Source: Candidatus Zambryskibacteria bacterium CG10_big_fil_rev_8_21_14_0_10_42_12
GTDB lineage: Bacteria > Patescibacteriota > Minisyncoccia > Phycocordibacterales > 1-14-0-10-42-12
Length of the DNA stretch: 41,294 nt
Direction of reading: 5' to 3'
Assembly (NCBI GenBank): GCA_002787695.1
Contig: PCXL01000011.1
Coordinates: forward strand, 202,250 to 243,543
In this document: piece by piece, positions 9,524 through 41,294 of the stretch
Layout: each line of letters opens with the position of its first letter
Position numbering within the stretch: position 1 is the first letter of the stretch
Made by a program: the position numbers and the translations under genes
The notes under the pieces: model-generated
Databases searched by the model: none
What the model saw: only the letters and a program-made list of their open reading frames with translations
What the model was told of the DNA's origin: nothing

Positions 9524-9658
9524 TTATTGCGGTGTCGTATATGCAAGGATCACAAGCAGGGCTGCGATAATAGCCAACCCTGTTTGCATCTGACGTATGT
9601 CTCGAGCAAACATGAGCCACCCGCATATTACTGCGAGTATATACAAAAAAATTTGCAT
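9524..9658 (-). CDS. 44-aa two-TM small membrane protein
   Basis: MQIFLYILAVICGWLMFARDIRQMQTGLAIIAALLVILAYTTPQ; SD AAGGAGG 3 nt before ATG; upstream promoter. Confidence 0.7.
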   Translation of the reverse strand: MQIFLYILAVICGWLMFARDIRQMQTGLAIIAALLVILAYTTPQ

Positions 9659-9720: not shown

Positions 9721-9754
9721 AACATTCTCACATTCTTGAGAATGTCAGCATGTT
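9721..9754. promoter_or_regulatory. 34-bp dyad operator candidate upstream of zwf
   Basis: AACATtctcACATTCTTGAGAATGTcagcATGTT, same-centre inner and outer dyads; 28/34 match to 39166-39199. Confidence 0.7.
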
Positions 9755-9782
9755 CCATGGGTTTGGTATACTAGAGCTTCTC

Positions 9783-11075
9783 ATGAAAAACGATAAGAAG
9801 AACATTTTTATTCTATTTGGTGCGACAGGGGATTTGGCGAGAGAAAAGATTCTGCCTGCCCTATTTTCTATATGCACAAAAAAAATCATTGAGAACCTAA
9901 CCATTATTGCTGTCTCACGGAGAAATTGGACCAGTAGCGACTATCGTGATTTTGTTCTCAAAGAAGCGAAGCTTCCAATTTTACAGAGGGCACAACGTAC
10001 CGTAAAAGATCAAAAAAATCTTGATGATTTTCTATCATCAATAATGTATGTTGCCGGAGATATTCAACAGGGTGTGTATGTATATCAAACAATTAAAGAT
10101 TATATAAACACTCAGAAGACAAAAAGGGTTGTTGCATATTTCTCCGTTGCACCACATTTTTTTCAAGCTATGGTGACCGATGGAGCCAAAGCGGGACTTT
10201 GGGGAGAACATCAGAAGGTCAGAGTTCTCCTCGAAAAACCTTATGCAGACAACGAACGATCGTTTAGTGCACTTATAAAAACAATCAACGATACGATCGG
10301 GAAACATGCACTTCTTGTAGACCATTATCTTGGTAAAGACGTAATGCAAGCAATACAGAAAATTCGCGTACCCAATAAAGCACTAGAGACAAAAATTAAA
10401 AGTAAACTTAAGCATATAGTCATTCGACTCTTTGAAAATAATGTTGCTGATCGTCGTGGAGAGTTTTATGACAAACTCGGAGCGTTTATAGATGTCGGTG
10501 CAAACCACGAGTTGCAGATGCTTGCATCTCTCGTTGCGCCTCTTAGAGGACCAAAAATTCAAAGCGAAAAATTGTTTGCATCATTGTCTGTTAATAAACA
10601 GCATGTTGTCCCCATGCAATACCAGGGGTACCAGAAAACAGATCAAGTTCATAAAGATTCAAAAACTGAAACTGCATTTGAGATCACGCTCTCATCCACG
10701 TTGTCTTATTTGAAAGACGTGCCAATTATTCTTGCGGGCGGAAAGGGCTTCAGTTCGTATCAGAGTGATATGGTCGCTGTCTTTGAAGATGGTTCCCATA
10801 TCACTGTTACATTAAAACCACGAGAAGGTATACATGCAACGTACCCAAAAATAATTGAAAACTACCCAAAGCCACAGGAGGCATATGAAACTATCGTCGA
10901 GCAGGCATTTCAAGAAAAAACATCTATATTTGTCACACCAGAAGAGGCCAAACATGAGTGGCGCATTATTACAGATGTTAAGAAAGCGTTTGCTCAAAAA
11001 AATATTGAAACATATAACAAAGGCGCGCAAGTACCCGAATATGATACAACAAACCCTATATGGGATATGTTGTAA
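9783..11075 (+). CDS. zwf: Glucose-6-phosphate 1-dehydrogenase
   Basis: FILFGATGDLAREKILPALF; LLEKPYA; LVDHYLGKDVMQAI. Confidence 0.9.
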   Translation: MKNDKKNIFILFGATGDLAREKILPALFSICTKKIIENLTIIAVSRRNWTSSDYRDFVLKEAKLPILQRAQRTVKDQKNLDDFLSSIMYVAGDIQQGVYVYQTIKDYINTQKTKRVVAYFSVAPHFFQAMVTDGAKAGLWGEHQKVRVLLEKPYADNERSFSALIKTINDTIGKHALLVDHYLGKDVMQAIQKIRVPNKALETKIKSKLKHIVIRLFENNVADRRGEFYDKLGAFIDVGANHELQMLASLVAPLRGPKIQSEKLFASLSVNKQHVVPMQYQGYQKTDQVHKDSKTETAFEITLSSTLSYLKDVPIILAGGKGFSSYQSDMVAVFEDGSHITVTLKPREGIHATYPKIIENYPKPQEAYETIVEQAFQEKTSIFVTPEEAKHEWRIITDVKKAFAQKNIETYNKGAQVPEYDTTNPIWDML

Positions 11076-11764
11076 TGCAAAGCGAACATCCGCTCGAAAC
11101 GGCCGGCAGATCTCTGATGAACCTGTTATATAAGGCGCACAATAGAGATGTTTTATTGTTATTTTCAGGTGGTTCTGCAGCAAATGTACTCAATCATATT
11201 GATATTCCGAACCCACAACAAACCACTATATCGCTTGTCGATGAAAGGTTTACGATTGATCCTAAGCACCAAAATATTACGTTAATTGAAGAGCATGATT
11301 CAATCCGGAGTGTGCTTGATCAAGGATTAAAATTTCAGCCTGTTTTACATAACAACTTGTCATTCGAAGAGACTGTTCTCTATCAGGAATCTTTCTTGAG
11401 AAATTGGAGAAGAAAAAATCCGTATGGCGCAATTTTTGCTGTACTTGGCGTGGGGGCTGACGCGCATACTGCCGGCATGTTCCCATATCCGGAAAACGAG
11501 CCTGAATTCCATGCGCTTTTTGAAAATGGGGCATGGGTACGTGGGTATGACGTAGGAAACAAAAGTGAAAACCCTTTGCGAATTACCGTTACAAAAACTT
11601 TTCTCCAGGAACAAGTTGATGTAGCTGTTGTATATATAACTGGTGAAGAAAAAAGAGATGCACTCATGCATCTCCTATTACCATTTGGATATACCCACAA
11701 AACACCGATACGATTATTTCGTAACATGAAGAGAATATTTTTATACACTGATATAAAACTGTAA
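11075..11764 (+). CDS. pgl: 6-phosphogluconolactonase
   Basis: LFSGGSAANVL, SLVDERF, GVGADAHTAGMFP; TAATG overlap with zwf. Confidence 0.88.
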   Translation: MQSEHPLETAGRSLMNLLYKAHNRDVLLLFSGGSAANVLNHIDIPNPQQTTISLVDERFTIDPKHQNITLIEEHDSIRSVLDQGLKFQPVLHNNLSFEETVLYQESFLRNWRRKNPYGAIFAVLGVGADAHTAGMFPYPENEPEFHALFENGAWVRGYDVGNKSENPLRITVTKTFLQEQVDVAVVYITGEEKRDALMHLLLPFGYTHKTPIRLFRNMKRIFLYTDIKL

Positions 11765-12109: not shown

Positions 12110-12685
12110 TTGCGTGGTAAGAAAAAGAAACTCCCCTCGTCTATGTATATGGATCAATACAAGCAGTATAAACACGATTTTTTAAGTGCATACGATGAAT
12201 ATGCTGACCCCATATTTCGCTTTTGTTATTATCGTGTTTCAGACCGTGACGTAGCTCATGATCTTGTGCAAGAAGTGTTTATGCGCACGTGGAAATATGG
12301 AATACAGGGAAATGAAATAAAAGATATTCGTGCATTTTTATACCAAACTGCTCGCAATCTAATCATTGATTATTACCGCAAAGCGAAAGTAGATTCTTTG
12401 GATCAACTTTCTGATGACGGTATGCAATTTGATGATTCTGCTTTTATTGATCCGCAAGATATTGTAATAGACGCGACGTATACCCTCGAAAAGGTCAAAC
12501 GTGTCATCATGGATCTTAAGGATATTCATAAAGAAGTTATTATTTTGAGATACATTGAAGGGTATGGTCCAAAAGATATTGCACACATGCTTAATCAAAC
12601 TGAAAATGTTATCTCGGTGAGACTACATAGAGGAATGCAGGAATTGAAAGAGAAGTTAGACCACATACAAAACCATGACAAATAA
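12110..12685 (+). CDS. ECF-like RNA polymerase sigma factor
   Basis: DPIFRFCYYRVSDRDVAHDLVQEVFMRTW region 2; VIILRYIEGYGPKDIAHML region 4. Confidence 0.88.
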   Translation: MRGKKKKLPSSMYMDQYKQYKHDFLSAYDEYADPIFRFCYYRVSDRDVAHDLVQEVFMRTWKYGIQGNEIKDIRAFLYQTARNLIIDYYRKAKVDSLDQLSDDGMQFDDSAFIDPQDIVIDATYTLEKVKRVIMDLKDIHKEVIILRYIEGYGPKDIAHMLNQTENVISVRLHRGMQELKEKLDHIQNHDK

Positions 12686-39138: not shown

Positions 39139-39168
39139 TTGACAAAGAAACGGTAACCGTCTTACAAT
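39139..39168 (+). promoter_or_regulatory. Promoter of HTH-grpE-dnaK
   Basis: TTGACA-N18-TACAAT. Confidence 0.75.
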
Positions 39169-39199
39169 ATTCCTACATTCTTGAGAATACCAGAATGTT
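39166..39199. promoter_or_regulatory. 34-bp dyad operator candidate overlapping the -10 of HTH-grpE-dnaK
   Basis: AATATtcctACATTCTTGAGAATACcagaATGTT; 28/34 match to 9721-9754. Confidence 0.75.
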
Positions 39200-39212
39200 T
39201 TGATATAAACAT

Positions 39213-39504: not shown

Positions 39505-40053
39505 ATGAATGATGAACAACATGATGAAGTAATATACGACGATGAAAATCCTGAGATGGATGCCAAAGGATCAGTCAAAAAACTTCGTGAGAAATTAAAA
39601 GTGTCTGAAGAAAAAGCGCAGGAATATCTGACAGGATGGCAGAAGGCGAAAGCCGATCTTGTAAACCTGCGTAAAGAGGATGAGAAGCGAATGACTGATC
39701 GTCTCAAATTTGCAGAACAGACCCTTATCCTCGACCTTCTTCCTGTAATAGACAGCTTTGATATGGCGTTCGCCAACAAAAAAGCCTGGGAAGAACTACC
39801 GAAAGAATGGCGTACAGGAGTAGAGTATATTCACGCAAACCTTATGAGTACGCTCGAAAAATACGGTGCAAAGACTATTAATCCAATCAATGAACCATTT
39901 AATCCTGAATATCACGAAGCGATTGGGGCAATAGAGACAGATAAAGAGTCAGATGATCACAAGGTACTCGAGGTCATACAAAAAGGATTCAAAATGCATG
40001 ACAAAGTTATACGGACAGCAAAAGTAAAAGTGGGTGAATACAAAAGGAATTAA
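39505..40053 (+). CDS. grpE: GrpE nucleotide exchange factor
   Basis: C-terminal NPEYHEAIG...KVLEVIQKGFKMHDKVIRTAKVKVGEY. Confidence 0.95.
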   Translation: MNDEQHDEVIYDDENPEMDAKGSVKKLREKLKVSEEKAQEYLTGWQKAKADLVNLRKEDEKRMTDRLKFAEQTLILDLLPVIDSFDMAFANKKAWEELPKEWRTGVEYIHANLMSTLEKYGAKTINPINEPFNPEYHEAIGAIETDKESDDHKVLEVIQKGFKMHDKVIRTAKVKVGEYKRN

Positions 40054-40145: not shown

Positions 40146-41294
40146 ATGGGAAAAATAATTGGAATCGATCTAGGAACAACAAACTCAGCAGTAGCCGTCA
40201 TGGAAGGTGGAGAACCTCGCGTACTTGAAAATGCAGAAGGTAATCGAACAACACCTTCTATTGTTGCACTTTCAAAAACAGGTGAACGCCTCGCAGGACT
40301 CCTCGCAAAACGACAAGCAGTGACAAATCCAACAAACACAGTCTTTCAAATCAAGCGATTTATCGGACATACATTTGATGAAGAAGCGGTACAGAAAGAT
40401 AAAAATGCTGTACCTTACGAAGTTAAAAAAGGGGCTGACGGTGGTGTACTCGTAAAAATGGGTGAAAAAGATTATCGACCAGAAGAAATCTCAGCAATGT
40501 TTCTTCAAAAACTCAAAGCAGATGCAGAAGCAAAACTTGGTGAACCAGTTACAGAAGCGATTATCACTGTACCCGCATACTTTAATGATGCACAACGAAA
40601 AGCTACAAAGGATGCAGGTAAAATTGCTGGTCTTGAAGTAAAGCGCATCATCAACGAACCAACAGCTGCAGCACTTGCATATGGTTTCAATAAGAAAAAA
40701 GACGAGCAAATCGCAGTCTTTGACTTCGGCGGCGGAACATTCGATATCTCTATTCTTGAAGTGGGGGATGACGTTGTTGAAGTAAAATCAACAGATGGAG
40801 ACAGTCACCTCGGCGGTAAAGACATTGACCAAAAGATTATCAGCTATCTCGCAGATGAATTTCTAAAATCAGACGGTATCGATCTTCGTAAGGATCCTTT
40901 GGCTCTCCAACGTCTTGATGAGGCCGCTGAGAAGGCCAAAATTGAGCTTTCAAGCGCTTCGGAGACGGAAATCAACATTCCCTTCATTACATCAGGAGCA
41001 GAGGGTCCAAAACACCTTTTAATCAAACTCTCACGTGCAAAACTAGAAGAACTCGCCGATGAATTTATCAAACGATCAATAGATATTACCAAGCGAGCTA
41101 TCGAAGCATCGCCATTCAAAGTAGAAGATATTGACGAAGTGATTCTGGTGGGAGGACAGACACGCATGCCGAAAATTATCGAAGAAGTTAAAAAATTCTT
41201 TGGTAAAGAACCAAACAAATCTATTAACCCAGACGAAGTGGTTGCACTCGGCGCAGCAATCCAAGGAGGTATTATTTCGGGTGATGTGAAGGAT
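40146..41294 (+). CDS. dnaK: Chaperone DnaK, truncated by window end (not in ORF track)
   Basis: [55 protein letters not shown]. Confidence 0.97.

Follow-up and report, generated by a model that had tools for sequence, protein, structure and literature searches.

A predicted ArsR-fold autorepressor and its four-box palindrome ahead of grpE-dnaK in a Zambryskibacteria genome, with relatives across the Patescibacteria

The stretch of DNA analyzed here (the window; 41,294 nucleotides) carries two copies of a four-box palindrome, one at the promoter of an HTH-grpE-dnaK operon and one upstream of zwf. We consider it probable, from sequence comparisons and a fold model, that the first gene of the chaperone operon encodes an ArsR-fold autorepressor that acts on the four boxes at its own promoter. 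The balance tips slightly toward zwf being a second target of the same protein. The features on which these proposals rest are as follows:

9524 to 9658, minus strand: 44-residue hydrophobic open reading frame, divergent from zwf, read from the sequence; strong ribosome site AAGGAGG
9721 to 9754, no strand assigned: four-box palindrome upstream of zwf (putative operator 2); outermost right box degenerate (AGCAT)
9764 to 9772, plus strand: extended -10 TGGTATACT in front of zwf, roughly 12 bp past operator 2
9783 to 11075, plus strand: zwf, glucose-6-phosphate dehydrogenase (PF00479/PF02781)
11060 to 11764, plus strand: pgl-like gene, 6-phosphogluconolactonase (PF01182)
39139 to 39144, plus strand: -35 TTGACA of the HTH-grpE-dnaK promoter, read from the sequence (TTGACT-N18-TATAAT in the sister genome)
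39163 to 39168, plus strand: -10 TACAAT of the same promoter, 18 bp past the -35 and overlapped by operator 1
39166 to 39199, no strand assigned: four-box palindrome (putative operator 1), ATTCC-TAC-ATTCT-TG-AGAAT-ACC-AGAAT plus flanks; matches the generic pattern without mismatch and is kept in the sister genome
39213 to 39494, plus strand: ArsR-fold winged HTH gene, 93 aa, proposed cognate repressor (open reading frame and fold model)
39505 to 40053, plus strand: grpE (PF01025, E=3e-43)
40146 to 41294, plus strand: dnaK (PF00012, E=1e-169), continuing beyond the end of the window

Direct comparison of the two copies yielded identity at 28 of 34 positions and 6 differences, as reported in a preliminary description of this DNA. 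Such a pair is not expected by chance: the 34-base consensus, allowing up to 3 mismatches, was found at 2 places in the window and at none in 100 dinucleotide shuffles. That description had resolved each copy into an inner and an outer dyad. Their common centre holds, but the motif is described best by four boxes, ATTCY-n3-ATTCT-nn-AGAAT-n3-RGAAT, in which ATTCY recurs with an 8-bp period around a single centre and each arm is of the type 2 x AACATTCY. When the whole 675-kb genome was scanned with the generic pattern ATTC-N4-ATTCT-NN-AGAAT-N4-GAAT at 1 mismatch or fewer, these two copies alone were recovered, both directly at promoters; a third, weak place (C21:40694) appeared at 3 mismatches.

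The TTGACA-N18-TACAAT promoter noted previously is present, and operator 1 covers the last three bases of its -10 together with the expected transcription start. TATAAA at 39204-39209 was weighed as a leaderless promoter, a homologous -10 lying 4 bp past the palindrome in some relatives, and rejected here, as the ATG is too near. In the sister genome (G001, 59% complete), where the HTH-grpE-dnaK order is kept, the segment from the -10 through operator 1 to the ATG aligns without gaps and the spacer upstream is unalignable.

The description of the first gene as ArsR-like and followed by grpE and dnaK agrees with the fold model and the Pfam matches. The HTH protein itself falls under all Pfam thresholds, with MarR as its top match (E=2e-4). 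Its AlphaFold (AF2) model has a pLDDT of 90, and the top PDB matches of this model are HlyU, CzrA, CadC, and ArsR (TM about 0.8), indicating that the modeled protein is ArsR/SmtB-like in fold. The recognition helix reads NLKTIAEH, and the sole cysteine, Cys48, lies just ahead of it. The resemblance to the ArsR/SmtB autorepressors extends from the winged helix of about 95 residues to the placement of the palindrome, repressor-fashion, over the gene's own promoter. Unlike those proteins, the HTH protein lacks the metal-site cysteine pair (no CxC motif, only one Cys) and scores below the Pfam thresholds of known HTH families. The metal-site motif is also absent from many ArsR-fold proteins. Further differences are a 34-bp site of four boxes in place of a shorter dyad and, in relatives, an HTH gene that often has a site on either side.

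Homologs of the HTH protein were identified in 20 of 60 sampled relatives and, in GTDB, among Portnoybacteria, Sungbacteria, Giovannonibacteria, and other Parcubacteria. Most of these genes are preceded by a near-perfect palindrome of 26-36 bp built on the same plan. Among 58 distinct homologs, 45 have a palindrome upstream, 33 have one at the 3' end, and 28 have both; in the closest homologs the stop codon lies inside the 3' palindrome, giving C-termini of KTF* or KTFQHS*. The 3' palindrome is absent in the genome studied here, where grpE begins 10 bp after the HTH gene. A viral origin was rejected, as IMG/VR yielded neither relatives of the HTH protein nor the exact four-box palindrome, and we found no earlier description of the palindrome/HTH pair in the open-access literature.

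Across 248 genomes of the order, the palindrome (1 mismatch or fewer) was detected in 62, compared with a single genome for a reversed-pattern control, and the HTH protein in 67. Both were present in 48 genomes, the palindrome only in 14, the HTH protein only in 19, and neither in 167 (Fisher p=3e-23, a value that treats the genomes as independent and is uncorrected for phylogenetic relatedness). The relatives are mostly metagenome assemblies, and the 14 palindrome-bearing genomes in which no HTH protein was detected (G043, G115, and others) may have lost the partner, lack the relevant contigs, or encode a diverged protein.

The inner half-site tracks the residues that open the recognition helix among the 58 distinct homologs. 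Helices of the form N[FILV]KT pair with ATTCT/AGAAT, NEKTxGEH with AAACT/AGTTT, GYMNASDH with ATTTT/AAAAT, and SFKATS with an ATTCG-type half-site; for the first two groups the counts, made by eye, are 26/0 against 0/8 (Fisher p about 5e-8). The NLKTIAEH helix encoded in the window belongs to the ATTCT class, and its site is likewise ATTCT. Of the signs that the HTH protein would bind the palindrome, this covariation is the strongest. Because palindromes flank HTH genes and the half-site changes with the recognition helix, the HTH protein appears to be the cognate binder, and the four-box palindrome very probably serves the adjacent HTH protein as its operator. Given this pairing, and given that only the region from site to start is kept in the sister genome, autorepression is likely and control of zwf plausible.

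From the motif, its co-occurrence with and flanking of HTH genes, the covariation, and the conserved footprint, we infer binding and repression of the following kind. The HTH protein, as a dimer or a pair of dimers, would occupy the four ATTCY boxes. When bound at 39166-39199, it would block the -10 and start region and so repress its own HTH-grpE-dnaK operon. When bound at 9721-9754, upstream of the extended -10 of zwf, it would most likely repress zwf-pgl and possibly the divergent small open reading frame as well. Counting against this scheme, four boxes spanning 34 bp exceed the reach of one classical ArsR dimer; counting against the pairing are the 14 genomes with a palindrome and no detected HTH protein, together with one genome (G027) in which the dispersed copies are mostly centred differently from those flanking the HTH gene.

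At the zwf locus, the extended -10 (TATACT as its -10) is present with operator 2 upstream, as first noted. Operator 2 lies in the common spacer between the promoter of zwf and that of the divergent 44-residue reading frame (TTGACA at 9708-9703, N16, TATACT at 9686-9681); that frame is a possible second target of the operator. Counting against zwf control are the degenerate outer box of operator 2 and the lack of a conserved counterpart. A Zwf match was found in 25 of 60 relatives. The sister genome (59% complete) yields only a C-terminal Zwf fragment, and the other zwf loci that were fetched have no palindrome within 3 mismatches, only scattered places at 4-5 mismatches. An ECF-type sigma factor gene (Sigma70_r2, r4_2) lies shortly past zwf-pgl (12110-12685, plus strand).

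The main competing explanation is that the palindrome is a dispersed, mobile repeat akin to REPs or Rickettsia palindromic elements (RPEs), that the zwf copy, and perhaps both, are non-regulatory insertions, and that the HTH protein partners the repeat and does not regulate host genes. Its support comes from relatives, in which the palindrome does look like a dispersed repeat of REP/RPE type: a genome can hold up to 19 copies, and copy numbers are patchy inside one genus (13 versus 0; 4 versus 0). The preliminary description treated the operator as novel to its locus, whereas the palindrome belongs to a family found across the phylum. Of 153 other phylum genomes that were sampled, 12 carry it, most of these lying outside the order. 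One genome outside the order has three palindromes in 410 bp (G287:C2:75075-75484).

REPs are palindromes of 20-40 bp that occupy tandem and convergent spacers, flank a dedicated gene, and occur as genome-specific variants (PMC3733652, PMC3116915); the palindrome resembles them in each of these respects. The intergenic copies in relatives, tallied outside HTH genes with genes from a simple gene caller, likewise shun divergent spacers (45 tandem, 12 convergent, and 3 divergent, against spacers numbering 126, 31, and 31; p=0.03 by count and 2e-4 by spacer bases), a bias like that of REPs (PMC3733652); the genome studied here has just two copies. Unlike REPs, which are usually highly abundant, the palindrome has 1-19 copies, and its partner gene encodes a winged HTH rather than a tyrosine transposase. 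No GTAG tag is conserved among the compared copies. A RAYT-REP explanation was rejected: Y1 transposase genes are common (22 of 28 genomes tested), yet the palindrome directly flanks no RAYT gene at the 19 loci inspected. Eighteen of these loci lack it altogether, and at the remaining one it brackets an HTH gene some 1.2 kb distant. Two Y1/RAYT-like transposase genes occur in the genome studied here (G000:C15:49142-49438 and G000:C9:46400-46657), one of them near a different, strong GC-rich palindrome (L144, around 79).

RPEs are known as palindromic copies in frame inside unrelated genes (PMC10969869). Comparable copies were found, all in relatives, within TsaD, UvrC, Tgt, two NifS, and DusB-like genes, in variable loops and often reading [YH]SNIL[KQT]N. 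The palindrome differs from RPEs and intragenic MITEs in its length (34-36 bp versus about 150 bp), its mainly intergenic location, and its association with a DNA-binding gene. The coding copies occupy extra or variable segments and replace variable loop sequence rather than forming clean insertions; loop lengths vary, which blurs the comparison with empty sites, and an alignment of UvrC to the PDB stopped short of the palindrome region. Since many copies in relatives are convergent-intergenic or lie in coding DNA, a given copy is not necessarily an operator.

The arms covary within genomes at positions 7-10 and 15-19, reaching past the motif, and therefore palindromy itself is maintained or regenerated, either because a hairpin is selected for or through quasi-palindrome correction. 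In one copy (L079, G019:C1, around 3068), the arms run on into more ATTCT boxes, one every 8 bp (ATTCTACTATTCTACTATTCTAGTATTCT...), which suggests that arms may grow by 8-bp units. Two families share a palindrome between the same convergent genes, hpf and fmt by resemblance (L080, G019:C6, and L074, G042:C10), which could be inherited or mark a preferred site. Copies at four other loci (L070, L075, L083, L096) adjoin the same genes (murF-like and PIF1-like helicase) in different families, although the side of the gene on which the copy lies, upstream or downstream, differs between genomes.

Several observations weigh against a mobile repeat as the explanation for the copies in the window: the genome has only two, both at promoters; the copy at the HTH promoter is kept in the sister genome though its spacer diverged; RAYT loci are not directly flanked; intragenic copies exchange loop sequence; and such a repeat is without a known mobility mechanism. 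We regard this explanation as unlikely, though the strongest of the competitors.

The preliminary description had gone further than autorepression and proposed a dedicated heat or oxidative-stress repressor, distinct from HrcA and HspR, that ties chaperone synthesis to NADPH supply. As in the HrcA-CIRCE and HspR-HAIR systems, a predicted autoregulated repressor gene heads a grpE-dnaK operon, with another protein and another operator. The absence of those operators noted by eye is borne out in the window, which has no match to CIRCE (TTAGCACTC-N9-GAGTGCTAA) within 3 mismatches and no exact match to HAIR (CTTGAGT-N7-ACTCAAG). HrcA was found in none of 16 genomes (this one and 15 relatives; controls scored in 7 of 14). 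This absence, the gene order, the restriction of sites to two, one of them at zwf, and the position of Cys48 all speak for a stress role. However, Cys48 is not conserved across the HTH family, and genes beside copies in relatives (cell wall, aminoacyl-tRNA synthetase, and repair genes, by sequence resemblance) look unrelated to stress. The HTH-grpE-dnaK linkage is confined to the genus among the fetched loci bearing a site or an HTH gene, with no grpE or dnaK seen near any other, and other fetched zwf loci have no comparable site. Outside the genus, the conservation that the preliminary description asked for ahead of grpE/dnaK or zwf orthologs is lacking, and relatives have many copies in unrelated spacers and some within coding DNA. 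Autorepression stands as likely, nothing found indicates a stress input, and a coupling of chaperones to NADPH supply is improbable.

Least probable of all is a role of the palindromes at transcript level, as intrinsic terminators or RNA hairpins: they are near-perfect inverted repeats with covarying arms and are often placed after genes, but T-runs after the stem are not enriched (10.8% against 8.9% in the control), for which reason the terminator reading was rejected. In addition, the four conserved boxes and helix/half-site covariation indicate protein recognition, and copy 1 precedes the first gene of its operon.

Returning to the predicted autorepressor, the HTH/palindrome pair may derive from a larger family within the Patescibacteria, whose HTH genes are typically bracketed by cognate palindromes, with further copies scattered in the manner of REPs or RPEs; from this we infer a history of capture in which, in this genus, the unit came to be placed ahead of grpE-dnaK. 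More tentatively, and at somewhat less than even chances, the dispersed palindromes may be organized Patescibacteria-wide around a small ArsR-fold protein rather than a transposase. HTH genes would then be commonly bracketed, the 3' copy often supplying the stop codon, protein and palindrome would co-diversify, copies would spread to spacers and coding loops, and this genus would have recruited the unit as a switch for its chaperone operon.

Very little work has addressed how Patescibacteria regulate transcription, and HrcA appears to be missing from the 16 genomes tested. A regulator and operator that form a self-contained pair, with a helix-to-site code that can be read, offer a testable handle on gene control in these organisms. 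If the dispersed copies are mobile, they would represent a palindromic repeat family partnered by a DNA-binding protein and would illustrate a route from repeat to operator.
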